Below are positions 13,107 through 51,603 of a DNA stretch of 63,343 bases, one piece after another (within the stretch, counting starts at the first letter, position 1; the number at the start of each line of letters is the position of its first letter). Source of the DNA: Verrucomicrobiota bacterium (GTDB lineage: Bacteria; Verrucomicrobiota; Kiritimatiellia; SS1-B-03-39; UBA6053); NCBI GenBank assembly GCA_020831635.1, contig JAFIGC010000014.1, positions 1 to 63,343 of the forward strand, read 5' to 3'. The position numbers and the translations under genes were made by a program. The notes beneath the pieces were generated by a model. The model did not search any database and was not told the DNA's origin. It saw only the letters and a program-made list of their open reading frames with translations.

Positions 13107-13136
13107 GGAATAACCCAAACCCAATAGGAAACAAAC

Positions 13137-32959: not shown

Positions 32960-33982
32960 TTATTCCCACCCGGACATATTGAAAAGGCGGACGGCGGTCA
33001 CATTGAGATCGCCCAGCTTGCCCAGATTCAGGGTGTCCGCTTTGAACGCGCCCCAGCTTTTCTGCAAGTCGGATAATTCGATTCCTTCAACCACCGGAAA
33101 TTCGCTGGTGGTGAGCGGAAAGGTTTTTTGGGCTTCTTCGGAGACCAGGAATTCCAGGAATTTTTGGGCTTGTTCCGGACGGCGGGACGCTTTGATGACC
33201 CCGCCGCCGCTGACGTTCACATGGATGCCGCGATCCTCTTGGTTCGGAAAATGGACGGCCAGACGACCCGCGAGTTCCCGGTCTTGCGGATCGGGGGAAT
33301 TGTGCATGAGTCCAAGATAGTAGGTATTGACGATGGCCACGTCGGCCAGGCCACGGGCCACGGCCCGCATCTGGTCGCGGTCACTCCCTTGGGGCGCACG
33401 GGCCAAATTTCCCCGCACGGCCCGGGCCCAGGCGAGGGCCTCGGCTTCCCCGTGGGCGGCAATCATGGAGGCGAGCAGGGATTGATTGTAGATATGGGAA
33501 GAGGAGCGGGCCAGAAGACGTCCGCGCCATTTGCGGTTGGCCAAATCCTCATAGGTGGTGAGTTCCCCGGCCTGCACTCGGTCCTTGGCGTAAATCATCA
33601 CCCGGGCGCGTAGAGTGAACCCAAACCAAGTGTTGTCCGGGTCACGGTAGGGTTCGGGTATGCTTTCGGTTAAAATTTCCGACTCCAGGGGCAATAGCAA
33701 CCCGGCGGTCTTCGCAATGTGCAATCGACCGGCGTCGGCAGTGATCAACACGTCCGCACGAGTGTTATCGCCTTCGGCCCGCAAACGCTCAATGAGTTCA
33801 TCGGCGCCGGCCTTGACCACACGGACGCGGATACCGGTTTGTTCCGTGAATTTCTCGAATAAAACGTCATCCGAGGGATAATGGCGATGGCTGTATACGG
33901 TAATTTCATCCGCCATCGTCGGAAAAAAAATGGGGCAAAGGCCCGCGAGCAAAAACAGGAGAAGGGAATGGAGTGATTTCAT
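32960..33982 (-). CDS. fbpA: Iron(III)-type ABC transporter substrate-binding protein
   Basis: 340 residues: signal peptide (SLLLFLLAGLCPIFFPTMA) then a periplasmic binding protein with ITVYSHRHYPSDDVLFEKF, VLITADAGRLHIAK, GLADVAIVNTYYLGLM, VSGGGVIKASRRPEQA and the FbpA-type paired Tyr in NTYY that coordinates Fe3+. ATG 33982 gives a normal signal peptide; several in-frame ATGs lie upstream (33994, 34012) and the choice is uncertain. First gene of the operon; a palindrome lies about 35 bases upstream. Confidence 0.9.
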   Translation of the reverse strand: MKSLHSLLLFLLAGLCPIFFPTMADEITVYSHRHYPSDDVLFEKFTEQTGIRVRVVKAGADELIERLRAEGDNTRADVLITADAGRLHIAKTAGLLLPLESEILTESIPEPYRDPDNTWFGFTLRARVMIYAKDRVQAGELTTYEDLANRKWRGRLLARSSSHIYNQSLLASMIAAHGEAEALAWARAVRGNLARAPQGSDRDQMRAVARGLADVAIVNTYYLGLMHNSPDPQDRELAGRLAVHFPNQEDRGIHVNVSGGGVIKASRRPEQAQKFLEFLVSEEAQKTFPLTTSEFPVVEGIELSDLQKSWGAFKADTLNLGKLGDLNVTAVRLFNMSGWE

Positions 33983-34014
33983 TTGGGTGGCCATCAAGCA
34001 TATGGTTGACATGT

Positions 34015-34028
34015 AAAGCACATGCTTT
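34015..34028. promoter_or_regulatory. Possible operator upstream of the iron transporter operon
   Basis: AAAGCA-CA-TGCTTT, a 6+6 inverted repeat, 33 bases upstream of the fbpA start and next to the related AAGCATATG at 33997-34005. An iron-responsive regulator site is plausible by position, but it does not match the classic Fur box well. Confidence 0.35.
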
Positions 34029-34450
34029 ATTCGCATCATTCCGGCAAACTTCAAGCCAAAATCATGGCTTATTCCTTTCGCGGACGCATCCCCGAATGGG
34101 TGTATGGTCATTTTTCATCCAAAAGAGGATTGCCTTTCCAGGCTGTCACAGTGCCTCTTCGCCGTGTCAGGCTAAAAGCCTAACCTCCGTTTTTCCGACA
34201 TCTCGTCGCCATACTCGTCACTCCAGCTTGTCGTTTACCTGTGCCGCAAGGGCACGGGGTTCTTCAGAACATCCGTAGGATTTCCAGCGAAGGACTTGTA
34301 ATCCCTCTATAATCTTGCGGCGGAGAGGAACGGCACTCGCGGCGTTCTCATGGCTTGTCGGAGTTCTTGTGAATGAGTTCATGTGTTATGCACACACGTT
34401 ATCAACAGATTATGTAATCTACTCATTATAAAGTATTTACGGGATATAGT

Positions 34451-34478
34451 GTTATACATAATATATATTATGCGACGT
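34451..34478 (-). other. dif: Candidate dif (XerC/XerD recombination) site at the replication terminus
   Basis: Read on the minus strand, the 28 bases are ACGTCGCATAA, TATATA, TTATGTATAAC: an 11-base XerC-type arm, a 6-base centre and an 11-base XerD-type arm. By my alignment 20 of 28 positions equal the E. coli dif site, including CGCATAAT and TATATTATGT. It lies in a 712-base gap between divergent fbpA and pheS, in an AT-rich stretch that also has a perfect palindrome at 34407-34420. G/C strand bias changes sign around here: the + strand is G-rich in leftward and rightward genes to the left, C-rich in both to the right, as expected at a terminus. Confidence 0.75.
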
Positions 34479-34577
34479 TGTTATGTCGGAGGGATATTCG
34501 GGATGGAACCCGGGCGAAACAGTTTCTTTGCCTTGAATCTTGAAACCTGTGGATACCACCAAGACACGGCCAGTGAT

Positions 34578-34656
34578 CCCATCATTCTGTCCTCACCCAA
34601 TCCCCACATCATTCTGTCATCCCATCATTCTGTCCTCCAGACAAACATCATTTTGC
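34578..34656 (+). repeat. Array of CATCATTCTGTC units, copy 1
   Basis: ATCATTCTGTC occurs at 34581, 34609 and 34624, then a diverged ATCATTTTGCT near 34647, with C-rich spacers. A matching array lies at 62766-62836 and ends with the same ACATCATTyTGCT. Spacers are short and irregular, so this is not a CRISPR. It occupies the leader of pheS. Confidence 0.7.
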
Positions 34657-34694: not shown

Positions 34695-35708
34695 ATGCAA
34701 CTTGAAGACATCCAACATCTCACCGACACCGCCGTTGCCGACATTGCCGCCGCCGCGGACGAGACCGCGCTGGAAGCGGCCCGCGTCCGCTATCTGGGCC
34801 GCAAAGGAAAATTGCCGGACATCATGGCGGCCCTGAAGACCGCAGCCCCCGAGCAACGTCCCCAATACGGACAGGCCGCCAACCAATTCAAAACCCGGGT
34901 CGGCGAAGCCCTGGATGCCCGGAAATCCGCGCTCGCGGCCACGGCCACCCCGGCAAACGCCCTCGACGTCACCCGTCCAGGCGATCTGCCGCCGCTGGGC
35001 AGCATCCACCCCATCCGCCAAATCATCGGACGGGTCACGGAAATCTTCGACCGCATCGGCTTCACCGTGGCCACCGGGCCCGATATTGACAGCGTCTTCA
35101 ACAATTTCGATGCCCTCAACACCCCCGCCGACCACCCGTCCCGCGATCCGCAGGACACTTTTTACCTGGAGGACGGTTCCCTGTTGCGCTGTCACACCAG
35201 CCCCGTGCAGGTGCGTCACATGCTTAAACATCCGCCCCCCGTCCGCATCATCGCGCCCGGACGCGCTTATCGTCGCGACACCCCCGACGCCACCCACAGC
35301 GCCAATTTCCACCAAGTGGAAGGTCTTTACGTCGACAAAAAGGTCTCCATGGCCGATCTCAAGAGCGATCTCACCTATTTCGCCGGCGAAGTGCTCGGAC
35401 CCGGCGCCAAAGCCCGTTTCCGTCCCCATTTTTTCCCCTTCACCGAACCCAGCGTGGAAGTCGATTTCACCTGCCACGTCTGCAAAGGCAAAGGCTGCCG
35501 GGTGTGCAAGAATTCCGGATGGATCGAAATCGCGGGCGCGGGCATGGTCGATCCCAACGTCTTCCAAGCCGTGAACTACGATCCCGACGCCGTCACCGGC
35601 TATGCCTTCGGCATGGGCCTGGAACGCATTGCCATGATTCTCCTCGAAATCGACGATATCCGCCGTCTCTACGACAACGACGTGCGCTTCCTCCGTCAAT
35701 TCGCCTGA
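34695..35708 (+). CDS. pheS: Phenylalanyl-tRNA synthetase alpha subunit
   Basis: 337 residues, catalytic subunit of the (alpha-beta)2 enzyme. N-terminal coiled coil with ARVRYLGRKGKLPDIMAAL; catalytic core motif 2 region with LLRCHTSPVQVRHM and RAYRRDTPDATHSANFHQVEG; HFFPFTEPSVEVDFTC; CKGKGCRVCKNSGWIEIAGAG; and motif 3 GYAFGMGLERIAM. ATG 34695 gives the family start MQLEDIQ; earlier in-frame codons run through the repeat array and dif region. pheT follows after 29 bases. Confidence 0.98.
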   Translation: MQLEDIQHLTDTAVADIAAAADETALEAARVRYLGRKGKLPDIMAALKTAAPEQRPQYGQAANQFKTRVGEALDARKSALAATATPANALDVTRPGDLPPLGSIHPIRQIIGRVTEIFDRIGFTVATGPDIDSVFNNFDALNTPADHPSRDPQDTFYLEDGSLLRCHTSPVQVRHMLKHPPPVRIIAPGRAYRRDTPDATHSANFHQVEGLYVDKKVSMADLKSDLTYFAGEVLGPGAKARFRPHFFPFTEPSVEVDFTCHVCKGKGCRVCKNSGWIEIAGAGMVDPNVFQAVNYDPDAVTGYAFGMGLERIAMILLEIDDIRRLYDNDVRFLRQFA

Positions 35709-35737: not shown

Positions 35738-38140
35738 ATGTTGATTCCCCTCAGTTGGTTGAAAGACTACATCGAACTCCACGAAGACGTGGACGCCCTG
35801 CGCGAACTCCTCACCTTTTCCGGTCTGGAAGTCGAAGCCGTGGAAACCCACGGTTCCGATTTCGAGCAGATCGTGGTCGCGGAAATCACCGCCATCTCCC
35901 CCCACCCCAATGCCGACAAACTGACCCTCTGCACCATTGAAGACGGCTCCGGCGTCCCGCAAACCGTGGTCTGCGGCGCCCCCAACGTCCGCGTGGGCAT
36001 GAAAACCATCTTCGCCCCCGTCGGCGTGACCCTCCCCAACGGCCTCACCCTCAAAAAGGCGAAAATCCGGGGCGTGGAAAGCCTGGGCATGCTCTGCGCC
36101 GAAGACGAACTCGGCTTGTCCAAAGCTCACGACGGCATCATGGACCTCGCCGCAGATCTGTCCCCCGGCACCCCGGCGGTGGACGTGCTCGGCGGCCCGG
36201 AAATTGTTTTCGACCTCGAAGTCACCCCCAACCGTCCCGACTGCCTGAGTGTGATCGGCGTGGCCCGCGAACTGGCGGCCATCACCGGACGCGAACTCAA
36301 ACTGCCGGAAACGCCTTTGCGCGAAGGACGTGAATCTACGGCGGACCGCGCAAAGGTGCGCATTGACGATCCCGAGGCCTGTCCCCGCTACACCGCCCGC
36401 GTCCTCACCGGCGCCCATGTGGGGCCCAGCCCCGACTGGATGCAAAAACGCCTGCGCCTCTGCGGCATCCGCCCCATCAACAATCTCGTGGACATCACCA
36501 ACTACGTGATGCTGGAAACCGGACAGCCCTTGCACGCCTTCGATCAAAGCCTACTGCACGGCGACACCGTCATCGTCCGCCGCGCCGCTGAAGGCGAGGT
36601 CATGCAAACCCTCGACGACAAGCCCCGCAAATTGTCCGCCGAACATCTCGTCATTGCCGACGCCGGCCGGGCCGTGGCCGTGGCCGGAGTCATGGGTGGC
36701 GCCGACAGCGAAATCCGCGATAACACCACCACGGTGCTGCTGGAAAGCGCCGCCTTCCAGTCCAGCCGCGTTCGCGCCACCGCCAAATCCCTGGGCATGC
36801 ACACCGATTCTTCTTACCGCTTCGCCCGCGGCTGCGACATGAACAACGTCGAATGGGTCAGCCGCCGCGCCGCCTCGCTCATGCAGCAACACGCCGGCGC
36901 CACCCCGCTCAAGGGCGTGGTCGATGTTTGGCCCGGCGAACGCAGTCCCGTACAAGTCTCCTGCCGCTGGAAAAAAATCACCGATCTCATCGGCGTGGAC
37001 ATTCCCGTGGACACCATGCGCGGGTATTTCCACCGCCTCGGACTCAAAGACGTGGAGAGCAGCGACGAAGGATGCACCTTGGAAATCCCCAGCTTCCGAG
37101 ACGATTTGCGGCGCGAGGTGGACCTCATCGAAGAAATCGCCCGCCTCAACGGTCTCGACAAAATTCCCGCCCGCGATCCCATCGGACGCATCGTGCCCAC
37201 CGCCAATGACCGCCCCACCCGTCGGCTCATGAACCTTTGGAGCCGCGTGGCCGCCATGGGCTTCAACGAGATCATGAACTACAGTCTCACCGCCCCCGAG
37301 TCCCTCAACGCCCTCGATCCCAACGCCGCCGCGCGTCAGGAACATCTCCCCAACCCCATCAGCCAGGATCAGGCCGTGCTCCGCACCTCCCTGATCCCGC
37401 AGATGGCGGAAACCCTGGCCCGCAATTACGCCCGCCAAAATCACGAACTCTCCCTCTTCGAAATCGGCACCATCTTCCTCAAAGCCGAAACCGGCGTGGA
37501 AGAGCAAACCCGAATTGCCTTCGGACAACTCGGACCCGTCCACCGCCCTGCCCTCGACAAACAGCGCCCCGTCAGCGACACCGAAGCCTTCTACGGACTC
37601 AAAGGCGTGGTCGAAACCTTTTTGAAGAGCGAAGGGGTCCATGAGGTCACCTTCATTCCCCTCGAAGACAAAAGTTTCGCCCCCGGACAGGCCGCGGACA
37701 TTCTTTTGGGCAAAACCCATTTGGGACGCATCGGACTGCTCGCGCGCGAATTGCGGGAAGACTGGAAAATCCACGAGCCCGTCGCCCTCGCCGAGATCAT
37801 TCTCGACGTACTGCCCAAGCGCAAAACGCCGGTGATGAAGCCCGTGCCCACCATGCCCGCCACCGCCCGCGACACCGCCCTGATTTTGGACCGCGCCGTC
37901 ACCCACGCCGAAATCCTGGCCTGCATCCAAAAAGCCGCCCCCTACGAATTGGAAGACGTGCAATTGTTCGACGTGTTCGAAGGCAAAAAACTAGGTGAAA
38001 ACCGGAAAAGCATGGCCTACCGCTTCACGTACCGAAATCCCAAAAAGACCCTCACCGACAAAGCCGTGGAAAAATTCCACGGCAAAATCGAAGCCCGCCT
38101 CATGCAGGACCTCGGCGCGGAAATCGTTGGGCGGGGCTGA
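35738..38140 (+). CDS. pheT: Phenylalanyl-tRNA synthetase beta subunit
   Basis: 800 residues with all expected domains. Motifs are MLIPLSWLKDYIEL at the N-terminus, an OB-type tRNA-binding domain (ISPHPNADKLTLC, VVCGAPNVRVGMK), the B3/B4 editing region (NNLVDITNYVMLETGQPLHA, VMGGADSEI), the B5 domain, the catalytic-like core, and a C-terminal anticodon-binding FDX domain (VPTMPATARDTALILDRAV, YRFTYRNPKKTLTD). Full length for the family. Co-transcribed with pheS. Confidence 0.98.
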   Translation: MLIPLSWLKDYIELHEDVDALRELLTFSGLEVEAVETHGSDFEQIVVAEITAISPHPNADKLTLCTIEDGSGVPQTVVCGAPNVRVGMKTIFAPVGVTLPNGLTLKKAKIRGVESLGMLCAEDELGLSKAHDGIMDLAADLSPGTPAVDVLGGPEIVFDLEVTPNRPDCLSVIGVARELAAITGRELKLPETPLREGRESTADRAKVRIDDPEACPRYTARVLTGAHVGPSPDWMQKRLRLCGIRPINNLVDITNYVMLETGQPLHAFDQSLLHGDTVIVRRAAEGEVMQTLDDKPRKLSAEHLVIADAGRAVAVAGVMGGADSEIRDNTTTVLLESAAFQSSRVRATAKSLGMHTDSSYRFARGCDMNNVEWVSRRAASLMQQHAGATPLKGVVDVWPGERSPVQVSCRWKKITDLIGVDIPVDTMRGYFHRLGLKDVESSDEGCTLEIPSFRDDLRREVDLIEEIARLNGLDKIPARDPIGRIVPTANDRPTRRLMNLWSRVAAMGFNEIMNYSLTAPESLNALDPNAAARQEHLPNPISQDQAVLRTSLIPQMAETLARNYARQNHELSLFEIGTIFLKAETGVEEQTRIAFGQLGPVHRPALDKQRPVSDTEAFYGLKGVVETFLKSEGVHEVTFIPLEDKSFAPGQAADILLGKTHLGRIGLLARELREDWKIHEPVALAEIILDVLPKRKTPVMKPVPTMPATARDTALILDRAVTHAEILACIQKAAPYELEDVQLFDVFEGKKLGENRKSMAYRFTYRNPKKTLTDKAVEKFHGKIEARLMQDLGAEIVGRG

Positions 38141-39250: not shown

Positions 39251-39361
39251 GCAAACATTTTGCGCTCCCTAATCAACGAATGCGCCGCCTCCAGCATTGA
39301 CAAGCCGATTTTCTCACATAGCCATCAGTGGTATGATGATAAAGCAAACGGGGAACCCTTT

Positions 39362-42300
39362 ATGTCCAGCAGCCTGAAAGACAATCGACCCGCCCGGGGA
39401 ACGGTGGGAGACTTTCTTCGCACCCAAATTCAGCCAAACAGCGAACTGTCTTTCACCTCGGCTTATTTCACCGTCAGCGCCTTCGAGACCCTCCGCTCCG
39501 AACTCGAATCCGCAAATCGCCTCCGCTTTCTATTTGGGGAACCGTCGTTCATCTCCGAAATCGACGTCGACAAAGACGAAAAGAAAAACTTCCGGCTCAC
39601 CGAGGACGGACTTGAGCTTACCCACGCCCTCACCCAGCGGCTCGCCGCCAAAGCCTGCGCGGATTGGATGAAAGAGCAGGTGGAAGTGCGCTCGATACGC
39701 CAATCCGGCTTTTTGCACGGCAAAGCCTATCATATACTCAACGGGAACGCATCCAGTGCCATTCTCGGCAGTTCGAACTTCACTGTTCCGGGGCTGGGCT
39801 TGCGTGAAAGGGGTAATAATATTGAGCTGAACCTCGTGGTGGATTCCGACCGGGACCGCCAGGATCTGCTGGCCTGGTTTGAGGAGGTTTGGCAGGACGA
39901 CACGCTGACCAAGGATGTCAAAGAAGAAGTCCTGCGCCACTTGGAACGTCTCTACGCCAACCACGCCCCGGAATTCATTTACTATCTCACCCTCTTTCAC
40001 ATTTTCCGGGAGGAACTCGAAGGCGCGGGCGAAATCGATGACACCCTCAAACAAACCACCCTCTTGGAGTCCAGTGTCTGGAAAATGCTCTTCAGCTTCC
40101 AAAAAGACGGTGTCAAAGGGGCCATCAACAAAATTCTCGCCTACAACGGTTGCATCCTTGCCGACAGCGTCGGCCTGGGCAAAACCTTCGAAGCTCTCGC
40201 GGTCATCAAATATTTCGAACTCCGCAACGAGCGCGTGCTGGTGCTCTGCCCCAAAAAGCTCCGCCAAAACTGGACGACCTACCGGACCAACAGCCGTCTC
40301 AACCCCCTGCTCGAAGACCGTTTCGCCTACGATGTCCTCTCCCACACCGACCTGTCCCGCATGGAAGGAACCAGCGGTGATCTGGATCTCGCGAACCTGA
40401 ACTGGGGCAATTATGGTCTCATCGTCATCGATGAATCCCACAATTTCCGAAACAACGCCTTGGGCAAAGAAAAAGACGACGGCACCCGCCGCCGTAGCCG
40501 CTACGAACGCCTCCTCGAAGATGTCATCCAGTCCGGGGTCAAAACCAAAGTGCTGCTCCTCTCCGCCACCCCGGTCAACAATCAGATCGCGGACATCCGC
40601 AATCAGATTTCCTTTATCGCCGGCGGCGATGTCGCCCGCTCCGATAATCCCGCCCACGACGGCGCCTTTCGCGAAAGCCTTGGCGTGGCCAGCGTCCGCG
40701 AAACCGCCCGACAGGCTCAAAGCAAATTCACCACCTGGACGAAAAAACCCGTCGCCGAGCGCAAAACCCGCGAATTGATCAACCAACTCGGCAGCGACTT
40801 CTTCAAATTGCTCGACGGACTTTCCATCGCCCGCTCACGCGCCCAGATCAAACGCTACTACGCCAAGGAACTCGCCACCCTCGGCGGGTTTCCCGAACGC
40901 GACAAACCCCGCGCCGAATATCCGGAAATCGACTCCCAAAACAAGTTTCTCAGCTTTCAGCAGCTCGACCACGAAATCAGCAACCTGACCCTGAGTCTCT
41001 ACCACCCCAGTTCTTACCTGCGCGACGATTTGCCCGCCACCATCCGGGAACAATACGCCCTCCGCATCGGAAACTTCACTCAGGAAGGCAGGGAACGCAT
41101 CTTGATTTCCATGATGAAGGTGAATTTCCTCAAACGGCTGGAAAGCTCCATCGATTCCTTCCGCCTCACCCTCAGCCGCACCATCCAAAAAATCGACGAC
41201 CTGACCCAGCGCATCGATACTTTTCAGCAGCTCCAAAACCAAAACCCCGAAATCGACTTCGCCAACCTCTGCGACGCGGATTTTGACGACTTGGATCTCG
41301 ACCCCGAGGAACTCAAGATCGGCGGCAAACACAAAATCAGCCTCGATCACCTCGATCTCCCCAAATGGAAACAGGCCATCAGCCACGACCGAAGTCAATT
41401 GCAATACCTTCTCGACTGCGCCAACCCCATCGCGCCCGCCCGGGACGCGAAGCTGACCCGTCTCCGCAAACTCGTTGAACACAAGCTCGACCACCCCTCC
41501 ACCAACCGCGAGGGCGAACCCATCCGCAAAGTGCTCGTATTCACCGCCTTCGCCGACACCGCCGACTACCTCTGGCGCAACCTCGCACAGCCCCTGCACC
41601 AGGCCCGCGGCACCCACACCGCCCTCATCTCCGGCGGCGGCACCTATCGCACCACCCTCGGCAAAGCCGATTTCGAACACATCCTCACCCACTTCTCCCC
41701 CCGCTCCAAGTCCCGTGACCGCCAGCCGGAACTCTTCCAAAACGAAGAAATCGACCTCCTCATCGCCACCGACTGTATTTCCGAAGGCCAAAACCTGCAG
41801 GACTGCGATCTGCTCATCAATTACGACATCCACTGGAATCCCGTGCGCATCATCCAGCGATTCGGGCGCATTGACCGCATTGGCTCCCGCAATCCCCGCG
41901 TTTCCCTCGTCAATTTCTGGCCCACCCAAGACCTCGACGCTTACCTCAACGTCAAACACCGCGTCGAAGCCCGCATGGCCCTGGTCGACCTCACCGCCTC
42001 CGGCGAGGACAACCTCCTCAACTCCGAGCAATTCGAAGATCTCATCGCCTCCGATCTACACTACCGAAACAAACAACTCAAACGCCTGCAAAACGAAATT
42101 CTCGACCTCGAAGACCTCGACGAGGAAACCCTCTCTCTGGCCGACTTTTCCCTCGCCGACTTCCGCCTCGACCTCCTCCGTTTTCTCGAGTCCAACCGCG
42201 CCGCCCTCGAAGCCGCCCCCCTCGGACTCTACGCCGTGGCGCCCCCCGATCCGCAACTCCCCGCCTCCCAGCCCGGCATCCTCTTCTGCTTCCGACAGCG

Positions 42301-42673
42301 CGACGACCGCCGCCCCACCCAGGTCAACCCCCTCGCCCCCCACTACCTCGTCTACGTCCTCGACGACGGTAACGTCCGCCTCACCTTCGCCCAGCCCAAG
42401 CAAAACCTGGAACTCTTCCGCACCCTTGCCGCCGGACATCCCGCCCCCCTCAACGCCCTCTGCGACGCCTTTGACGACCGCACCCGCAACGGCACCGACA
42501 TGACCCGCGAAAACCAGCTCCTCGCCAACGCCGTAGAGTCCATCAAAACCACCTTCGGCAAACGTGCCGCCGCCGCTCTCTTCTCCGGACGCGACGGCAT
42601 TCTCCCCACCCGAACCGACACCCCCGCCTCCAGCGCCGACCTCGAACTCGTCACCTGGCTGCTCATCATCTAA
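39362..42673 (+). CDS. SNF2-type helicase with N-terminal PLD-like nuclease domain
   Basis: 1103 residues. N-terminal PLD-like domain with HGK (119-121) and GSSNF (136-140), the half-motif pattern of PLD nucleases. Then a superfamily 2 helicase: DSVGLGKT (268-275), DESH (357-360), SATPVNN (401-407) and, in the C-terminal lobe, TDCISEGQNLQDCD and QRFGRIDRIGS (about 832). It probably couples ATP-driven DNA translocation to cleavage, as in PLD-family restriction systems such as NgoAVII/CglI. ATG 39362 has GGGGAA eight bases upstream. With the large methyltransferase downstream it forms the core of a likely defence module. Codon use is very C-rich, like pheT. Confidence 0.87.
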   Translation: MSSSLKDNRPARGTVGDFLRTQIQPNSELSFTSAYFTVSAFETLRSELESANRLRFLFGEPSFISEIDVDKDEKKNFRLTEDGLELTHALTQRLAAKACADWMKEQVEVRSIRQSGFLHGKAYHILNGNASSAILGSSNFTVPGLGLRERGNNIELNLVVDSDRDRQDLLAWFEEVWQDDTLTKDVKEEVLRHLERLYANHAPEFIYYLTLFHIFREELEGAGEIDDTLKQTTLLESSVWKMLFSFQKDGVKGAINKILAYNGCILADSVGLGKTFEALAVIKYFELRNERVLVLCPKKLRQNWTTYRTNSRLNPLLEDRFAYDVLSHTDLSRMEGTSGDLDLANLNWGNYGLIVIDESHNFRNNALGKEKDDGTRRRSRYERLLEDVIQSGVKTKVLLLSATPVNNQIADIRNQISFIAGGDVARSDNPAHDGAFRESLGVASVRETARQAQSKFTTWTKKPVAERKTRELINQLGSDFFKLLDGLSIARSRAQIKRYYAKELATLGGFPERDKPRAEYPEIDSQNKFLSFQQLDHEISNLTLSLYHPSSYLRDDLPATIREQYALRIGNFTQEGRERILISMMKVNFLKRLESSIDSFRLTLSRTIQKIDDLTQRIDTFQQLQNQNPEIDFANLCDADFDDLDLDPEELKIGGKHKISLDHLDLPKWKQAISHDRSQLQYLLDCANPIAPARDAKLTRLRKLVEHKLDHPSTNREGEPIRKVLVFTAFADTADYLWRNLAQPLHQARGTHTALISGGGTYRTTLGKADFEHILTHFSPRSKSRDRQPELFQNEEIDLLIATDCISEGQNLQDCDLLINYDIHWNPVRIIQRFGRIDRIGSRNPRVSLVNFWPTQDLDAYLNVKHRVEARMALVDLTASGEDNLLNSEQFEDLIASDLHYRNKQLKRLQNEILDLEDLDEETLSLADFSLADFRLDLLRFLESNRAALEAAPLGLYAVAPPDPQLPASQPGILFCFRQRDDRRPTQVNPLAPHYLVYVLDDGNVRLTFAQPKQNLELFRTLAAGHPAPLNALCDAFDDRTRNGTDMTRENQLLANAVESIKTTFGKRAAAALFSGRDGILPTRTDTPASSADLELVTWLLII

Positions 42674-42695
42674 ACATGTCCAAAGATTGACAGGA

Positions 42696-42711
42696 ATGCA
42701 TTTTTATGCAT
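42696..42711. promoter_or_regulatory. Paired ATGCAT boxes before vapB2
   Basis: Two palindromic ATGCAT hexamers separated by TTTT, followed by TATATTG, 11 bases before the antitoxin start. A likely autoregulatory operator for the VapBC pair. Confidence 0.4.
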
Positions 42712-42721
42712 ATATTGTTTT

Positions 42722-42943
42722 ATGAGAACAACTCTGGATTTACCCAACGACCTTTTAGAACGCACAAAAATTGAGGCGGTAAAACGCCGAACCACCATCA
42801 AACAACTCGTGATGGACGGACTGCAGCACGTTCTCGCACAGCAGGACATGCCCACCCCACCCCCGCAAGCGTTGAAGCGCCTTCAAAGCGGCTATCGACT
42901 CGGCGGAACGCCCTTGAGTCGCGGGGAGACTCATGAGCGTTAA
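42722..42943 (+). CDS. VapB-type antitoxin (intact pair)
   Basis: 73 residues, starts MRTTLDLPNDLLERTKIEA with a ribbon-helix-helix-like N-terminus (KRRTTIKQLVMDGLQHVL) and a short toxin-binding tail (GYRLGGTPLSRGETHER). It overlaps the PIN toxin gene by 11 bases. It would neutralise and co-repress the pair through the ATGCAT boxes upstream. Confidence 0.82.
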   Translation: MRTTLDLPNDLLERTKIEAVKRRTTIKQLVMDGLQHVLAQQDMPTPPPQALKRLQSGYRLGGTPLSRGETHER

Positions 42944-43346
42944 GCGCTTTTTCGACACCAATGTCCTGCTCTACGCCTACGATCTGGATGCAGGATCCAA
43001 GCGTGAAAAGGCACTCGTTCTGCTCAGCGAAGCCCTTCGAGTTCCATCGGAAACAGCCATCAGCGTCCAGGTTCTACAGGAATTTCACGCCAATTTCACC
43101 CGCTTTGGGAACATGGACGAGGATGCGGCCACCTTGATTCAGGACCTGTCCATCTTTCATGTCGTCGATAACACCCTGTCTCTTCTGCGCCGAGGCCTGG
43201 AGGAAAAGGCCCGATGGCAGCTTTCACTTTGGGACGCCATGATCCTTGCCGCCGCCAGACAGTCGAGATCCTCCGAACTGCTGACCGAAGATTTCAATTC
43301 CGGCCAGGACTACGGCGGCATCCGCGCGGTAAACCCTTTCACCTAG
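42933..43346 (+). CDS. VapC-type PIN-domain toxin
   Basis: 137 residues, predicted Mg2+-dependent ribonuclease. The acidic residues of the PIN site are present: Asp8 (FFDTNVLLY), Glu50 (LQEFHANF), Asp101 (LWDAMILAAA) and Asp120 (LLTEDF). It ends at YGGIRAVNPFT. The stop TAG (43344-43346) consists of the TA target duplication plus the first base of the IS630 element, so the original C-terminus may have been slightly different. Otherwise intact. Confidence 0.88.
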   Translation: MSVKRFFDTNVLLYAYDLDAGSKREKALVLLSEALRVPSETAISVQVLQEFHANFTRFGNMDEDAATLIQDLSIFHVVDNTLSLLRRGLEEKARWQLSLWDAMILAAARQSRSSELLTEDFNSGQDYGGIRAVNPFT

Positions 43347-44542
43347 TGTTCTGTCGCAGAAATGACTAGACATTATTTCCTGATTGCATATACAGGATGC
43401 ATGACTAGAAAAACCACTGTGCTCACATTATCAGATGAAGACCGTAAGACGCTCGAATGCTGGGTTGCCGCACATGGCACTCCTCAACAAGTTGCGTTGC
43501 GCTGTCGTATCATTCTCTACAAATCTGAAGGTCTTACGGACCAGGAAATCGCTCAAAAGCTTGACGTGAACCGTCACACCTGCCGTCTCTGGCGCCAACG
43601 AATGAGTGAGGAGGGTCCTTCTTCTCTGTGGGAAGTGGCTTCTGGACGAGGGCGCAAACCCCAGCAGGGACTTGCCGCAAGCATTCTGGACGCAACCACG
43701 AAAACCAAACCCAAAGGGCAAACCCACTGGAGTAGCCGTGCAATGGCCAAGGAGAAAGGGGTGCATCATTCCACGGTTGCACGGGTCTGGAGCGACAATC
43801 AAATCAAGCCCCACCGCCATAAGACTTTCAAACTGTCCAAGGACCCAGACTTCGTTCCCAAACTTGTGGATGTTGTCGGCGTGTATTTGAGTCCTCCGCA
43901 AAATGCGGTGGTACTTTGCATTGACGAAAAAAGCCAAATTCAAGCCCTGGACAGAACGCAACCGGGTCTGCCGATGAAAAAAGGCAGGTGCGGCACATGG
44001 ACCCACGATTATGTTCGCCATGGTACCACCACCCTGTTTGCGGCACTGGAGGTCGCCAGCGGAAGGGTGATTGGCGAGTGCTACGGACGTCACCGCCACC
44101 AGGAGGTTCTGAAATTCCTGCGAAAGATTGACAAGGAATACGAGAACGGGGAGGAGCTGCATCTGATCATGGACAATTATTGCACCCACAAACACACCAA
44201 GGTCCGAGCCTGGCTGGAGAAAAGGCCTCGTTTCCGTGTCCACTTTATTCCGACAAGCTCCAGTTGGCTGAATCTCGTCGAACGCTGGTTTGCGGAATTG
44301 ACACAAAAAGCCGTTAGAAGAGGAAGTTTTACGAGTGTTCCCGACCTCATTGAAAAAGTCATGGAGTTTATCGAGTCACACAATGAGGATGCCACCCCGT
44401 TTGTGTGGACGGCCACTGCGGAAAGCATACTGGAAAAAATCGAGAAATGCAGACGTCGTCTTGAGGAAATCAGCCCGGGGTGCACCAGCAGAAAAAAACG
44501 GGCGGCAACTTAATATGTCTAGTCATTTCTGCGACAGAACAC
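43346..44542 (+). mobile_element. IS630-family insertion sequence (element 1), 1197 bases
   Basis: Perfect or near-perfect terminal inverted repeats of about 28 bases, starting GTGTTCTGTCGCAGAAATGA (left 43346 on; right, in reverse, from 44542). Flanked by TA on each side (43344-43345, 44543-44544), the TA duplication characteristic of IS630/Tc1. Encodes one transposase. It landed at the vapC2 stop, and a HigA/DUF1016 remnant lies on its far side. Confidence 0.92.
43401..44513 (+). CDS. IS630-family transposase (element 1)
   Basis: 370 residues. N-terminal helix-turn-helix domain (LTDQEIAQKLDVNRHTCRLW) and a DDE catalytic domain: first Asp in LCIDEKSQIQAL, second in IMDNYCTHKH, Glu in LNLVERWFAELT. 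Appears full length and uninterrupted, so probably active. ATG 43401 is the start; an earlier ATG at 43362 lies within the terminal repeat region. Confidence 0.92.
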   Translation: MTRKTTVLTLSDEDRKTLECWVAAHGTPQQVALRCRIILYKSEGLTDQEIAQKLDVNRHTCRLWRQRMSEEGPSSLWEVASGRGRKPQQGLAASILDATTKTKPKGQTHWSSRAMAKEKGVHHSTVARVWSDNQIKPHRHKTFKLSKDPDFVPKLVDVVGVYLSPPQNAVVLCIDEKSQIQALDRTQPGLPMKKGRCGTWTHDYVRHGTTTLFAALEVASGRVIGECYGRHRHQEVLKFLRKIDKEYENGEELHLIMDNYCTHKHTKVRAWLEKRPRFRVHFIPTSSSWLNLVERWFAELTQKAVRRGSFTSVPDLIEKVMEFIESHNEDATPFVWTATAESILEKIEKCRRRLEEISPGCTSRKKRAAT

Positions 44543-44554
44543 TAGATCTCAGCC

Positions 44555-44661
44555 ATGCACCCGAAAATCATCCTACCGAAGAGGAATACGATGCCGCGCT
44601 TGCGCATGTGGAGCCTCTGATGAGACAATTGACATGGATCCAACTCAAGACCCTGATTTAG
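44555..44661 (+). pseudogene. Chimeric remnant: HigA antitoxin start joined to DUF1016 (YhcG) fragment
   Basis: ATG 44555 begins MHPKI, then after a frame change reads HPTEEEYDAALAHVEPLM, parallel to the HigA-like gene at 38436 (MHPKI...EYEEALSHVEILM). It then passes into RQLTWIQLKTLI, which resembles the DUF1016 N-terminal stretch RQLTWSHFKELLPIEDLLKR seen at 45503. Neither part is complete. It marks a deletion or recombination joint next to the IS630 element. A 38-residue frame at 44634-44750 follows and is not recognisable. Confidence 0.6.
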
Positions 44662-44794
44662 TTTTCGAACCGATAAAACAACTTGTCGCGGAAAATTCCG
44701 CCGCTAAACAAAAACCAAAACCCCGCATCGGTTTTCACCTCGACACCTGAAATCAATGATTGACTATTTTTCTGGTCAGACGTAATGGTAAGAC

Positions 44795-45073
44795 ATGGAC
44801 ATCAAAGAAGAAAACTCAGTCGGGATTTCGGATTTCAAAGCTCATTGCACCGAGCATTTGCGGCGGGTGGAACAAACCGGTGCCTCCCTGCGTGTCACCC
44901 GGCACGGGAAAGTCGTGGCCGTGGTGAACCCGCCTGACGACGAATCGCCCACCATTGCGGAGTGGATGGGCCGCGGCGCGGGCCTCTCCAAACCGGGCTC
45001 CGGGGCCTTGTTTGACGAACCCACCTGGCAACCGGGCGACTGGGACATGGAACGGGATGACACCGAACTGTGA
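44795..45073 (+). CDS. Phd/YefM-type antitoxin
   Basis: 92 residues. GISDFKAHCTEHLRRVEQTG and LRVTRHGKVVAVVNPPDD are the Phd/YefM N-terminal fold; the C-terminal tail (GDWDMERDDTEL) is acidic and likely wraps the toxin. It overlaps the PIN toxin gene by 4 bases. Promoter-side bases 44700-44790 show no clear operator. Confidence 0.87.
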   Translation: MDIKEENSVGISDFKAHCTEHLRRVEQTGASLRVTRHGKVVAVVNPPDDESPTIAEWMGRGAGLSKPGSGALFDEPTWQPGDWDMERDDTEL

Positions 45074-45468
45074 ACTACCTGCTTGATACCAATGTTTGGT
45101 TTCGGCTGTTCGACAGTCCCCATGAAATCAACGAAGCGGTGCGCCGCACCCTCCAAAGCGAAAAACGATTGGCGGTTTCCAGTTTCAGCTTAATCGAAGT
45201 CGCGCAAAAGCAGTCCAAACACAACTTCCTCGCCGTCCCGGTCCGGGATTGGTTCAAGATCGCCATCCCCAGAGGCAGAATCGAAGTCCTGACCGTCACC
45301 CCCGAAATCGCGGTCCGTTCTTACAATTTGGGCGATCATTTTCATGGCGACCCCGCCGACCGCATCATCACCGCCACCGCGCTTGTCCACAACCTCACCC
45401 TCGTGACATCCGACCGAAAACTTTTGGCCGAGACCCAAATTCAAACCCTCTCCACCCGGCAACCCTAA
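45070..45468 (+). CDS. PIN-domain toxin paired with the Phd-type antitoxin
   Basis: 132 residues starting with GTG 45070 inside the antitoxin stop. PIN motifs: Asp6 in YLLDTNVWFR, Glu43 in SLIEVAQKQSK, Asp97 in GDPADRIITATAL and Asp115 in TSDRKLL. A complete, probably active RNase toxin of the YefM/Phd-PIN type. Confidence 0.88.
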   Translation: MNYLLDTNVWFRLFDSPHEINEAVRRTLQSEKRLAVSSFSLIEVAQKQSKHNFLAVPVRDWFKIAIPRGRIEVLTVTPEIAVRSYNLGDHFHGDPADRIITATALVHNLTLVTSDRKLLAETQIQTLSTRQP

Positions 45469-45502
45469 CAAACACCATGCCCAACCTCCACCGATCTTTC
45501 CG

Positions 45503-45736
45503 ATGAATTCAGATCGCAACCAGTTTGAATACCGCCAAATTGTCGCTACACTGTCGCGACAATTGACATGGTCTCATTTCAAAGAGCTTTTGCCTATTGA
45601 AGACCTCTTGAAACGAGGCATTTCCCAATGCAGAAAAAGTCTCCGCACTGCGGAGACTTTTGACACGAGTCCACCAAATGATTTACATCATCCCCTTCCG
45701 CGAACTTCTGCTCAACCCCTATCACAAAACCATTGA
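45503..45736 (+). pseudogene. N-terminal fragment of a DUF1016 (YhcG-type) nuclease-family gene
   Basis: YRQIVATLSRQLTWSHFKEL followed by LPIEDLLKR is the conserved N-terminal core of DUF1016 proteins, normally 330-370 residues; here about 45 residues survive. After that the frame is unrelated. The 314-base gap between the PIN toxin and the methyltransferase is made of this remnant and the hairpin at 45635-45661. Confidence 0.65.
45635..45661. terminator. Perfect 13-base hairpin
   Basis: AAAAGTCTCCGCA-C-TGCGGAGACTTTT, arms perfectly complementary with a one-base centre and A/T ends on both sides. Could act as a bidirectional terminator before the methyltransferase gene; one-base loop makes a palindromic protein site an alternative. 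Confidence 0.4.
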
Positions 45737-45782
45737 CATCAACCGCAACTGCATACAAAACGTACCAGATTGACTTCCGCCC

Positions 45783-48700
45783 ATGCCCGACCTCCGCACT
45801 TCCATCCAAACCGCCCTCCAAGCTTTCCAAACCCGCCCTCTCCGCGAGGCAGCCACCGAACTGCTCGCCACCCTCAGCTATCGAAGCGACCGCACTTTGG
45901 CGATTGATAACTTGGAAATCCTCAGGGATCATTTAGACCCACACGATTTCCTAAGAGAAGAAAACGCCCATATTTCTTTGTGGAAATCCGTCCATTTGCT
46001 CTTCCAGCTTACCAAGTCGGAACTCGCCCCATCCGCAGGCAATGACCTGGGACTCATCCTCGAAAATCCTCTGAAACTACACCACGAGGGGAAAGTCATT
46101 GAGTCCTATATCTTCTTTGCCGTGGACCTCCATTCCCGCGACGATGGACAGCCCCATACCCGCGAAACCTACGGCAACATCACCCGGGCCCTCAACCGCC
46201 TGGTGCCGCAACCCGTGCTGGTTCTCTTCCGCGAGAGTTCCCGCCTCTCCCTTGCTGTCATCAACCGCCGCCGCAATCTCCGGGACGGCACTCGCGACGT
46301 GCTTACCCGCGTCTCGCTGATCCGGGACATTGAGGTTGATTCCCCGCACCGCGCCCACCTCGACCTCCTCCAGCGCTTTTCACTCGTCTCCCTGTCCGCC
46401 GAATCCGCGATCCGCACCTTTGCGGATCTCGACACCGCCTGGCAGAAAATTTTCTCCGTCCAGGAACTCAAGAACCGCTTTTACAAATCCCTCTCCGCCT
46501 GGTTCCGCTGGGCCCGGCAGGAAATCCAACTCGCTCAACTCCCCGACCAAACCCCCGACACTCCGGCGGCCAGGGGCCGGGCCACCGACGAGTTTACCGT
46601 CCGACTCATCTGCCGCACCCTGTTCACCTGGTTCCTCAAGGAAATGCGGCTCATCCCCGCCGAGTTGCTTGAACTCTACGACACCGCCGAAAACCGGCGT
46701 GTCCTCACCAGAGACGGCGTGGACCCACATTATCTGGAAGGTAACCACTACTATCGCGGCATCCTTCAAAACATCTTTTTTCAATCGCTGAATCGCCCCA
46801 TGGACCAACGGCGTAAATCCGGACAGGAAGCCGCCAATGACCGCGAAGTCTCGGACTCCGAACTCAAAAAACTCGCCTACATCGGCAAACAGAATCTTCC
46901 CGAGGACTTCGACTATAGTCTCTTTGATCGCATTCCCTACCTCAATGGCGGACTTTTTGATGCCTTGCCCGAGGACAACCTTAAATTCACCCATGAGGAA
47001 GGCACCGCCTTCAACGTTCCCAACAAACTCTTTTATGCCCGCCGGGAGGATGGATTCACACTTCCCGGTGAGGGCCGCCGCGCCACCGCGCAGCCCATGG
47101 AGGGGCTGAACCGAATCTTTGACCGCTACCGCTTCACTGTCGCGGAAAACACTCCGCTGGAAGAGGATGTGGCTCTAGATCCCGAACTGCTGGGACTCGT
47201 CTTCGAAAACCTGCTCGCCGAAATCGACCCTGATGACGAAGCCGCCGCCAATACCGCCCGCAATGAGTCTGGATCCTACTACACCCCCCGCCGCATCGTG
47301 GACTACATGGTCAACGAGGCCCTGCACCTCCATCTCCGCACTGAATTCGAAAAAGACGGTGCCACGCCCGCCGATCTCCAACTTCTTGGTCAACTCTGCT
47401 ATGATCTCGAGCCCGGGGCGGATTTTTCCCCCATCGCCTCTCGGGTGGTGGACAGCTTGGAAGCCGTTCGCGTGCTCGACCCCGCCTGCGGCTCCGGCGC
47501 GTTCCCCATGGGCATGCTCCACCGCATGGTTGAACTGCTGCGCCGAGTCGATCCCGACAACCGGCTCTGGATTGAGCGCCTCCTCTCCCGCATTCCGGCG
47601 GGAATGCGGGAAGACGCCGCCCGCGGGCTGGAGGGCAAAAGCTACAACTACCTCCGCAAGCTCGGGCTCATTCAGAAAAACCTCTACGGCCTCGACATCC
47701 AGCCGTTAGCCACCCTCATCGCCAAACTCCGCTTTTTCCTCACCCTCGTCGTCGAACAGGAAGTCCACCTCGCCGACCCCGCACACAATTACGGCCTCTC
47801 CTCCCTGCCGAATCTTGAAACCAACCTGATCTGCGCCAACACCCTCGCCGATACCGGACACGGCCTGCTCAGCGGACCGATCCTCGCCGATCTCCGCCAA
47901 GCCCGCGAGGAATACTATCAGCCCGCCACCACCCGTGAGCGCCGCGACGAACTCGCCCGCGCGATCGGCGACAAACTCGCCACCCTGTTCCCCGGTTTCG
48001 CCGAATCCGCCAAAGGCGTGAAACCCGTCGGCGAAACCCGGATGGATCGGGAGAACATGCGCCACCATCAGGATGCCTACTGGCTGGCCGAATGGTTCAA
48101 ACACGCCACCCTCGCCGCCCCTTTCTTCAATGTGGAAACCTTCTTTCCCGAACTGATTACCGAAGGCGAACGCGATCCCGCCCCCTTTCATATCGTCATA
48201 GGCAACCCGCCCTACGGGGGCACCAAGATTCCGGATCAAGTCAAAAACGCTCTCGGTCTCGGGTCCAAAGATCCTTACGGTGCCTTCATCGCCCGCTTTC
48301 TGGGGAATCCTCGACGTGCCAGCCCGCTCGCCGAGGACGGGGTGCTCGCCTTCATCGTCAGCGACACCTTCATGACCATCAAAACGCACCGCCCCCTGCG
48401 GGAGCAAATGCTTCGAAACCGTATCCACAAAATGCTACGCGTTTCCGGGGACACCTTCAAGGCTACCGTCAACTGCGCCGTCATCCTCTGTCAACGCGGA
48501 GCCGCCTCGGAAACCCATACCTGCCAGATGGCCGACCTCACCAACGTCTCCATCCAGGAGCAGTACGAGCGCTTCCTTCACCTGCTCTACCAAACCGAAG
48601 GCTTCACCCGGCGCACCAATATCTCCAACCAGACCTACGCGATTTACCACTACCGCCAGCGCCTGATCGAAACGAATTCGAACCTCCCGTTCTTCGTGGC

Positions 48701-49544
48701 ATCACCGAAGCTCTTTGCGTTGATGAATGATACCACCGCGCCCGTTTCACAGGAGGTGATCGGTGGAAAGCGGGTGCCAGTGCGGACCGTGCAACTGAAT
48801 GGGAACGGTGTGCGGCTGATCAAGCTCGGGGATATTGCGGAAGTAAAAGTCGGTTTGCAGACGGGTGATAACGAAGCTTATTTGTTCCAGAACCCAGACG
48901 CCCGTGGTTCCTACCGTTCGATTGAAGAATACCGTGATTTCCTTTTGACCGATGCGGATCTTGCGGAAATTCATTCGGATGAAAATTTGAGAATGGATGT
49001 CATCAACCATGGTATTTCAAAGACCGAAACGACCTCACCACGATACTTTGGCGGTCGTTATATTGCACCCTATGACAAAGGCGGTGAATCTGATTCGGAG
49101 GAGGGATGGATGCCTTGTTACTGGGTGCCTACGAACTACTTCATTGATTGGAGTGAAGAGGCTGTTACTGCAATTAGAACGGTAACAATCGCTGATGCTT
49201 ATCGAAGAAAGGGAAAACCCGTACCTCAGGGGAAGCCTCATTACGAAAATACCGTCGCAGGGTTAATTCGCAATCCAGATTTCTATTTCAAGGATGGCAT
49301 CACTTTTTCAGATACCGGATTTTACGCGCCAACTTTTCGACTAAATAGCGCCGGAACATTCGATGTCATGGGAATGACGCTTTTCGCCGAAACTGATTCA
49401 AAACAGCTCTGCGGATTTCTCGCTTCGCGAATTACCAGATTCTTTGTTAAAACTTTTGTAAATTCTACTGTACACACTCAAGTCGAGGGACTCAAGCCGA
49501 TCCCTTTTCCAAAACTGCAACTAGTGCTTAGTTGCATAGATTAA
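45783..49544 (+). CDS. Eco57I-type DNA adenine methyltransferase, 3' end replaced by an IS
   Basis: 1253 residues as it stands. N-terminal ~350 residues are the helper region of type IIG/PglX-like enzymes (RETYGNITRALNRL, LTRVSLIRDIEVD). SAM-binding motif I DPACGSGAF lies near 565, catalytic NPPY near 807, followed by a target-recognition-like region. Predicted to make N6-methyladenine. The last seven residues (from CTA 49521 on) are IS630 sequence. Without the IS and one TA copy, the frame joins exactly to 50641 and runs to 51603. The loss of about 320 C-terminal residues, including a DUF3800 domain, may or may not have inactivated it. Confidence 0.88.
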   Translation: MPDLRTSIQTALQAFQTRPLREAATELLATLSYRSDRTLAIDNLEILRDHLDPHDFLREENAHISLWKSVHLLFQLTKSELAPSAGNDLGLILENPLKLHHEGKVIESYIFFAVDLHSRDDGQPHTRETYGNITRALNRLVPQPVLVLFRESSRLSLAVINRRRNLRDGTRDVLTRVSLIRDIEVDSPHRAHLDLLQRFSLVSLSAESAIRTFADLDTAWQKIFSVQELKNRFYKSLSAWFRWARQEIQLAQLPDQTPDTPAARGRATDEFTVRLICRTLFTWFLKEMRLIPAELLELYDTAENRRVLTRDGVDPHYLEGNHYYRGILQNIFFQSLNRPMDQRRKSGQEAANDREVSDSELKKLAYIGKQNLPEDFDYSLFDRIPYLNGGLFDALPEDNLKFTHEEGTAFNVPNKLFYARREDGFTLPGEGRRATAQPMEGLNRIFDRYRFTVAENTPLEEDVALDPELLGLVFENLLAEIDPDDEAAANTARNESGSYYTPRRIVDYMVNEALHLHLRTEFEKDGATPADLQLLGQLCYDLEPGADFSPIASRVVDSLEAVRVLDPACGSGAFPMGMLHRMVELLRRVDPDNRLWIERLLSRIPAGMREDAARGLEGKSYNYLRKLGLIQKNLYGLDIQPLATLIAKLRFFLTLVVEQEVHLADPAHNYGLSSLPNLETNLICANTLADTGHGLLSGPILADLRQAREEYYQPATTRERRDELARAIGDKLATLFPGFAESAKGVKPVGETRMDRENMRHHQDAYWLAEWFKHATLAAPFFNVETFFPELITEGERDPAPFHIVIGNPPYGGTKIPDQVKNALGLGSKDPYGAFIARFLGNPRRASPLAEDGVLAFIVSDTFMTIKTHRPLREQMLRNRIHKMLRVSGDTFKATVNCAVILCQRGAASETHTCQMADLTNVSIQEQYERFLHLLYQTEGFTRRTNISNQTYAIYHYRQRLIETNSNLPFFVASPKLFALMNDTTAPVSQEVIGGKRVPVRTVQLNGNGVRLIKLGDIAEVKVGLQTGDNEAYLFQNPDARGSYRSIEEYRDFLLTDADLAEIHSDENLRMDVINHGISKTETTSPRYFGGRYIAPYDKGGESDSEEGWMPCYWVPTNYFIDWSEEAVTAIRTVTIADAYRRKGKPVPQGKPHYENTVAGLIRNPDFYFKDGITFSDTGFYAPTFRLNSAGTFDVMGMTLFAETDSKQLCGFLASRITRFFVKTFVNSTVHTQVEGLKPIPFPKLQLVLSCID

Positions 49545-50638
49545 CGATAGTATTGCGTAGTTGGGTCCCTTTTACCTCCCGCTTTCTCCATTTAAATGGC
49601 TTCGCGGTAGCATTGTATACCTCGATGAATTCGTTAATCGCCCTCCCCAGTTCCTCGACACTCTGGAAGCTTGCTCCTCTCAAGGCCTTTCTCGACATGA
49701 TGCCGAACCAGATTTCCACTTGGTTAAGCCAACTGGCCGATGTGGGAGTAAAGTGAAAATAGACGTTTGGATGTTTCTCAAGCCATGTGTCGCACTTTTT
49801 GTGGGTGCAGTAGTTGTCCAGGATGACATGTATTTCCTGTTCTGGCGGAGCATCCGCGACAATTTCGTCCATGAACTTCAGGAATTCCTCCCGTCGCTTG
49901 AGGGTGGTTTGACTCGTTTTGATTTCGCCGGTAGCCACCTGCAGCGCAGCAAACAGATTGAGCGTTCCATGCCGTTTATAGGTGCTCTTGTAGCCGCGGA
50001 CTATTTTTCCGCTGTCCGTTTCCACATACCCAGTGGCCCGCTCCAAAGCTTGAATGCTTGGTTTCTCGTCCACGCTGATTACCAGAGCTTTCTCCGGTGG
50101 ATTCAGATACAAGCCAATAATATCGGCTGCTTTAGCGGCGAACTGCTTGTCAGTGCTCACGCACCACGAACGTTGACGTGCCAAGCAGATCCCCTCTTTC
50201 CGCAGTACACGCCAAACGGCATGGACCGAACCTCCGACCGCATTAGCCACAGACGGGCCATCCCATTCGGCCTGTCCCCGAGGTGGCGGTTCTTCGAGCT
50301 TTGCCAGTACCTTGTTGCGAAAAGACTCGCCGTAGACGGGTTTAGCTCCGGGGCGAGGCAAATCCTCGAGGCCCTTCAGGCCTTGTTGAGCAAAGCGTTG
50401 ACGCCATTTTATCACAGTATTGGGTCGGGTCTGACAGCGCTTGGCTATATCTTTAACCTGCTCACCGGCTGCGCAACCCAGGATGATGCGCGCACGGTCA
50501 ACAACCTGTTTCGCTTCGGTGCGACTCGTCGCACGACGTTCGAGAACTTGTTGTTCCTTTTCATCAAGTATGATTCGTGGTGATTTTCGTGCCATGCCAT
50601 CAGCATACACTATATCGTATATCAATGCAAGTAAGCAC
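49524..50638 (-). mobile_element. IS630-family insertion sequence (element 2), 1115 bases, splitting the methyltransferase gene
   Basis: Imperfect terminal inverted repeats: left GTGCTTAGTTGCATAGATTA, right (reversed) GTGCTTACTTGCATTGATAT. TA duplications at 49522-49523 and 50639-50640. One transposase gene on the minus strand. A different element from the one at 43346 (transposases clearly divergent), although both share the GTG tip and CTAG surroundings. Confidence 0.92.
49528..50595 (-). CDS. IS630-family transposase (element 2)
   Basis: 355 residues. Helix-turn-helix part VKDIAKRCQTRPNTVIKWRQ, then a DDE domain with Asp in VISVDEKPSIQAL, Asp in VILDNYCTHKK and Glu in WLNQVEIWFGIM. Intact. 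ATG 50595 starts MARKSPRIILDEKEQ. Its 3' end reaches to within 4 bases of the IS end. Confidence 0.93.
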   Translation of the reverse strand: MARKSPRIILDEKEQQVLERRATSRTEAKQVVDRARIILGCAAGEQVKDIAKRCQTRPNTVIKWRQRFAQQGLKGLEDLPRPGAKPVYGESFRNKVLAKLEEPPPRGQAEWDGPSVANAVGGSVHAVWRVLRKEGICLARQRSWCVSTDKQFAAKAADIIGLYLNPPEKALVISVDEKPSIQALERATGYVETDSGKIVRGYKSTYKRHGTLNLFAALQVATGEIKTSQTTLKRREEFLKFMDEIVADAPPEQEIHVILDNYCTHKKCDTWLEKHPNVYFHFTPTSASWLNQVEIWFGIMSRKALRGASFQSVEELGRAINEFIEVYNATAKPFKWRKREVKGTQLRNTIVNLCN

Positions 50639-50745
50639 TAGAATGTGGAGAAATTGCTGAATTAGTTCAATCAATTTCACAAAATCAGCGTACCAAACCC
50701 CGATACGACTACGCCAGCAATGAGCAGCTCGAGATCGACCGCCTC

Positions 50746-51603
50746 GTGTATGCCGCCTACGGGCTGAATGAAGCCGACATCAAGGAGGTGGAGAACTGGT
50801 ATGCGCGGAGGTATCCCAAGCTGGCGGAGGCGCAGCGGCGCAATCTGGCCGCCAAACAGGGCAAGACCGAGGAGGAGATCCTCAACCGTCCCGTGTACCA
50901 TCTGTACTGCGATGAGTCCTGCCATCTCCCCGCCGACGGCGAACCGAACATGCTGCTGGGTCTGGTGTCCAGTCCTGCGGAATGTGTTCGCACCTTGCAT
51001 CTGGACCTGAAAACTCTCTGGTCAAGTCACGGTATGCCGGAGAGTTTTGAGGTGAAATGGACCAAGGTCAGTCCCGCCAAGCTGGATTTCTATCTGGCAG
51101 TGCTTGATTGGTTTTTCGCACAGCCCGACCTGAGTTTCCGCTGTGTGGTGCTTTCAGATAAAGCCGCCGCCTACCAACGTCTCCCAGATGAAAGTCAGGA
51201 TCAGGTTTATTACAGCCTATATTATGAACTCTTACGTCACGCCACCGAACCGGAAAGCAGCTATCGAGCGTTCCTGGACATCAAGGATACCCGTGGCCGC
51301 GAAAAACTGCGGGCTTTGCATGAAATCCTGAAAGTGGATGCCAATGATCCCATGGGCGAACGCGTGGCACAGTTGCAGCATGTCCGTTCCCATGAAATAC
51401 GCCTTTTGCAACTTGCGGATTTGTTGCTCGGGATTGTTGCCCACGCCCGCCGCCCCCGTTCCCCAACGGATTCCAAGGCCAAGAGGGAGTTGATCCACGC
51501 TTTTGAAGACAAGGCGGGTTTCATGCTTTCCGGGGATTCGTTGCCGGGAACTGACAAGGTGCGAGTACTCACCATCCATGACAACCATGAGGTGACCCCA
51601 TGA
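50746..51603 (+). CDS. 3' part of the split gene: methyltransferase tail plus DUF3800 domain
   Basis: Open without stop from the IS edge (50641); first usable start is GTG 50746, giving 285 residues. The first part, including EIDRLVYAAYGLNEADIKEVE from 50731, is the C-terminal tail of Eco57I/PglX-type methyltransferases. From about residue 50 (YHLYCDESCHLPADGE) it is a DUF3800 domain: FEVKWTKVSP, CVVLSDKAA, FLDIKDTRGREKL and HEIRLLQLADLLLGIV. The two are continuous in one frame, so this is the C-terminus of a natural fusion and not an independent gene. The next gene overlaps its stop by 4 bases. Confidence 0.82.
   Translation: MYAAYGLNEADIKEVENWYARRYPKLAEAQRRNLAAKQGKTEEEILNRPVYHLYCDESCHLPADGEPNMLLGLVSSPAECVRTLHLDLKTLWSSHGMPESFEVKWTKVSPAKLDFYLAVLDWFFAQPDLSFRCVVLSDKAAAYQRLPDESQDQVYYSLYYELLRHATEPESSYRAFLDIKDTRGREKLRALHEILKVDANDPMGERVAQLQHVRSHEIRLLQLADLLLGIVAHARRPRSPTDSKAKRELIHAFEDKAGFMLSGDSLPGTDKVRVLTIHDNHEVTP

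Follow-up and report, generated by a model that had tools for sequence, protein, structure and literature searches.

The stretch of DNA studied here (the window, 63,343 nucleotides) is contig 277 of a 6.0-Mb Kiritimatiellia (Kiritimatiellota) draft genome in 308 contigs (G000). At positions 34451-34478 it contains a 28-mer that the initial annotation, made from the letters only, had taken for a dif site at the replication terminus. The question raised by this locus is whether the 28-mer is a true chromosomal dif, or whether it belongs to a mobile element or resembles dif by chance. By PheS similarity, the nearest named relatives were Verrucomicrobia/Kiritimatiellota metagenome bins and the complete genome CP120722.1 (74% identity). 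The latter, Kiritimatiellota bacterium B12222 (4,432,027 bp; G008), is of the same family as the window genome. Prediction of dif sites across phyla has been reported previously (Carnoy and Roten, 2009, PMC2731167; Kono et al., 2011, PMC3025954); in the latter study the table of phyla, taken by itself, includes Verrucomicrobia, with three genomes, and does not name Kiritimatiellota.

The + strand of the site reads GTTATACATAATATATATTATGCGACGT. On the minus strand it consists of a XerC arm (ACGTCGCATAA), the centre TATATA and a XerD arm (TTATGTATAAC), that is, two 11-bp arms, partly palindromic, on either side of a 6-bp centre, 28 bp in all, in the arm-centre-arm order initially described. The XerD-binding arm (34451-34461; + strand, GTTATACATAA) has an inner CATAA that is near-invariant in the site alignment and outer bases that differ by lineage. 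The central region occupies 34462-34467, and chromosomal centres are nearly all of the form [G/T/C]AT[A/G]TA. The XerC-binding arm (34468-34478; + strand, TTATGCGACGT) comprises 11 highly conserved positions. The arms are assigned to XerC and XerD by analogy with E. coli dif. The count of 20 positions shared with E. coli dif was correct (20/28 against its reverse complement, the best score in the window). Nevertheless, the best scores in 10 shuffled windows were 16-21, so this similarity is not significant by itself and serves only as a lead. A search with the exact E. coli dif allowing up to 3 mismatches gave no match, and the XerC arm ends differently in the two sites (GCGCACC in E. coli and GCGACGT in the window).

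More informative was the conservation of the site among relatives, a comparison that the initial annotation had proposed. Of 58 relatives, 49 had the 18-bp core (at most 2 mismatches), essentially as a single copy per genome, and the arm pattern was matched in 210 of 288 genomes of the class. When the approximately 49 relative sites were aligned, information fell to background outside positions −6 to +21, which correspond to 34451-34478, and the flanks were random; the boundaries of the site are thus exact. Taken together, about one copy of the chromosomal type was found per chromosome, conserved among relatives. Some additional candidates were discarded: the two copies of an apparent duplicate dif in G024 had identical flanks and lay at contig ends, and are an assembly overlap; weak extra matches in G004 (contig 26) and G040 (contig 166) were without the outer arms; and arm-pattern matches with two mismatches, including one on contig 269 of G000, occurred at the level expected by chance according to a reversed-pattern control.

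With respect to base composition, the counts originally reported on both sides of the site (27 G and 14 C at 8641-8700; 13 G and 26 C at 61801-61860) were exact, and the flip in strand composition at the site is real. Cumulative GC skew in the window was maximal at 34018 (1011, compared with 995 at 34464), within 450 bp of dif, and its 200 top positions lay between 33966 and 34577; none of 10,000 block shuffles of the window matched the observed range of the cumulative sum. Given that the genome of the window is divided into 308 contigs, global skew was assessed in the complete relative G008 only. In sampled 20-kb tiles of this chromosome the skew was below zero as far as 0.46 Mb and above zero between 0.66 and 2.67 Mb; it was negative once more from about 2.87 Mb, the switch back falling between 2.67 and 2.87-3.1 Mb. 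The dif of G008, at 2.932 Mb, is inside the switch interval, where the local skew goes from +0.04/+0.08 to −0.06. The site is therefore located at a GC-skew switch both in the window and, by the sampled tiles, in a complete chromosome. Most of ten relatives sampled 20 kb to either side of dif also changed skew sign there; in these samples there was no sign flip in G007 and G030 and only a weak one in G023 and G033. It must be noted that the orientation of dif relative to the skew is uninformative, because a terminus looks identical from both strands.

The polarity of KOPS-like motifs, another check suggested at the outset, gave a concordant picture. The E. coli KOPS consensus GGGNAGGG showed a leading to lagging ratio of 114:7 in the G008 samples, and in the window it pointed towards dif in 19 cases against 3. 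In addition, the recombinases that had been proposed for a search are encoded in the window genome: XerD (342 bits, cut-off 329.6) and a XerC-like recombinase, which scored slightly below the equivalog cut-off of TIGR02224 (321.5 bits; cut-off 335.15), exceeded that of the general NF001399 family and was the best match for XerC. An FtsK with a gamma domain (FtsK_gamma, 103 bits) is also present. The site thus shares with the dif/XerCD system of E. coli its length, its 11-bp arms around a 6-bp centre and its location at a skew switch, and the genome shares XerD, a XerC-like recombinase, FtsK-gamma and KOPS polarity; the enzymatic activities of XerC, XerD and FtsK are predicted from homology.

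Conservation, skew, KOPS polarity and gene content all support the original interpretation, and we consider it nearly certain that 34451-34478 is the Kiritimatiellia chromosomal dif site at the replication terminus. The locus is a standard FtsK-XerCD-dif terminus, ordinary in kind, and adds to the dif family a member from a class that has received little study. By extension from the E. coli system, recombination that fuses sister chromosomes would produce a dimer, and FtsK would pump the terminus DNA along the KOPS-like motifs towards dif. There it would activate XerD and then XerC, each presumably bound to one of the 11-bp arms, and the strands would be exchanged across the 6-bp centre, restoring two monomers.

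The initial annotation had placed the site between fbpA and pheS. The second of these stood, as pheS lies on the + strand (34695-35708; TIGR00468, 300 bits) and is followed by pheT (35738-38140; TIGR00472, 776 bits). The gene on the other side (32960-34111, minus strand) encodes an ABC transporter substrate-binding protein of the thiamine/2-aminoethylphosphonate/iron type that was below every equivalog cut-off, and the name fbpA is warranted in a generic sense only. None of 80 pheS loci of relatives had dif near pheS, and in CP120722.1 the two are approximately 0.3 Mb apart. Therefore, what is conserved is the 28-mer and not its gene neighbourhood; a role of the pheS surroundings in the dif system was rejected for lack of synteny, the location being lineage-specific. 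Between dif and pheS, at 34573-34655, there are three to four near-copies of CATCATTCTGTC spaced by 16-27 bp. The description of an accessory island with insertion sequences to the right of the site was fair, with defence-type genes and a transposase at 39-55 kb. This defence-like region (39260-55170) starts about 5 kb from dif and contains a defence-type HKD+Snf2-type helicase (PADLOC C3a139, 424 bits), a PIN protein, a DDE_3 transposase (43362-44513), a type IIG restriction-methylation enzyme (45783-49544) and two DUF3800 proteins, one of which matches PADLOC PDC-M04A.

Only one other site with perfect arms was found in G000, at 9644-9671 of contig 149. It reads GTTATACATAA-GCTATA-TTATGCGACGT, identical to the window dif in both arms and changed in two bases of the centre (GCTATA instead of TATATA). 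This second site is inside an integrative element of 8188 bp (within 8914-17129) that occupies the 3' end of ssrA; the final 28 bases of the tmRNA, which terminates at 8941, are repeated at 17102-17129. A congener, G001, has the empty site, in which ssrA is directly followed by the sequence found beyond the element in G000 (96% identity over 74 bp). Among the proteins encoded by the element are a tyrosine integrase, a CHC2 zinc-finger primase and an AlpA/excisionase-like helix-turn-helix protein. Single-protein queries with element proteins found no relatives in viral contigs. In another congener, G002, a second 29-bp copy of the ssrA 3' end (contig 161, 31435-31463) may mark the distal boundary of a further element integrated in ssrA.

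The presence of this near-identical site in a mobile element of the same genome, together with the accessory region to the right of dif, could suggest that the window site is itself an attachment or resolution site of mobile DNA (an IMEX att site or a plasmid xrs) and not the chromosomal dif. We regard this as very improbable. The housekeeping genes pheST directly adjoin the window site, there is no adjacent integrase, and neither a second copy nor a second bounding dif-like repeat, as an IMEX would have, was found in the window. Moreover, the centre TATATA is of the type seen in chromosomal sites, which is conserved throughout the class, and the skew peak coincides with the site. The contig 149 site, being part of a mobile element and changed in its centre, is no better dif than that of the window. 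Still less probable is a chance likeness to E. coli dif beside an ordinary skew flip due to gene orientation, since, even though shuffled sequence attains 20/28 and gene orientation does switch near the site, this reading is refuted by the class-wide conservation of 28 bp between random flanks, with the core in 49/58 relatives, and is also opposed by the KOPS polarity and the whole-chromosome position in G008.

The element-borne sites, which have the arms of the host and a different centre, are the more interesting part of these results. A search in which the centre was left free revealed extra dif-like sites in 11 further genomes of the class (13 element sites in 12 genomes, G000 included). 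Seven of them, that of G000 among them, were in elements of 6.2-8.2 kb delimited by direct repeats of tRNA or tmRNA ends and with an integrase at the boundary. These elements occupied ssrA (8188 bp, G000) and the genes for tRNA-Arg (6212 and 7868 bp), tRNA-Pro (6498 bp), tRNA-Tyr (6496 bp), tRNA-Leu (6984 bp) and tRNA-Cys (6729 bp). One extra site was on a 7.2-kb contig with a terminal overlap of 99 bp, which is probably circular. DnaB-like helicases, primases or a topoisomerase-like protein were encoded in most of the elements scanned. Exact matches of the 17 fixed bases occurred in nine genomes; by estimate, chance would yield approximately 0.1 such matches among the genomes sampled from the class (288 genomes × 3.3 Mb × 2 / 4^17).

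All 13 element sites differed from the dif of their own host in the centre, by 2-6 of the 6 bases. On average, centres differed by 1.2 bases between hosts and by 3.8 bases between elements. The outer XerD arm, in contrast, followed the host: elements and their own host dif had 13 differences over 12 genomes, compared with 38.5 expected when pairs were shuffled, and none of 20,000 shuffles gave a value as low as 13. The closest known counterparts are the plasmid xrs (cer, psi and the 28-bp xrs of large plasmids), in which the arms are conserved and the centre is not (PMC11724359). In arms and centres the element sites fit a putative site of this type with a private centre, and one of the contigs is probably circular. 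Unlike plasmid xrs, however, they are located in elements of 6-8 kb that encode an integrase and are integrated into the chromosome at tRNA/tmRNA genes. They also recall the IMEXs (CTXphi, VGJphi, TLCphi and GGI, PMC5357621; Legionella LME-1, PMC9765430) in being mobile DNA with a mimic of dif. Nevertheless, IMEXs integrate at dif by means of the host Xer recombinases, whereas the Kiritimatiellia elements have their own tyrosine integrase, lie in tRNA or tmRNA genes and have centres that always differ from the host dif; in particular, the element of contig 149 is inserted in ssrA, is bounded by a direct repeat and has its own integrase, which is not the arrangement of an IMEX.

From these comparisons, the likeliest role of the element sites would be to allow the host XerCD to resolve multimers that the element forms when excised or in tandem. 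Strand exchange occurs in the centre (PMC5357621), and the centres of plasmid XerCD sites are likewise non-conserved (PMC11724359). We lean, by a small measure, towards the view that these small elements, with host-like arms and a private centre, would borrow XerCD for their multimers and at the same time be barred from the chromosomal dif. For G000, an alternative is that the ssrA-element site works as an attP like that of VGJphi, also able to integrate at dif by a XerC-only exchange. The two G000 centres, TATATA and GCTATA, differ only in two bases on the XerD side and match in the TATA of the XerC side, and it is also on the XerD side that the attP of VGJphi departs from dif1 (PMC5357621). 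Against it, the element has its own integrase, is inserted in ssrA and is flanked by a repeat of 28 bp or more; no element was found at a dif site; and the elements of G093, G124 and G090 have no identity on the XerC side, with 1-3 bases in the others. The G000 element could conceivably integrate in this way, though on the whole this is unlikely, and for elements devoid of a XerC-side match it is not conceivable; multimer resolution by the host XerCD is the reading that we prefer.

The results locate the terminus and the dimer-resolution site for a mostly uncultured class of the PVC superphylum and supply a reliable 28-bp dif pattern for Kiritimatiellia. A limited search of the open-access full-text literature found no paper describing such a pattern in this class, nor any on sites of this kind in integrase-bearing tRNA elements. 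That the elements copy the arms of the host dif and never its centre suggests, as a hypothesis, a compatibility-tag function for the crossover region. Sites with perfect arms (ACATAA-N6-TTATGCGACGT) were also observed in 30 IMG/VR contigs, a few of which could be due to chance; nearly all of their centres were unlike those of chromosomal dif, and only one of the contigs had a clearly chromosomal-type centre.
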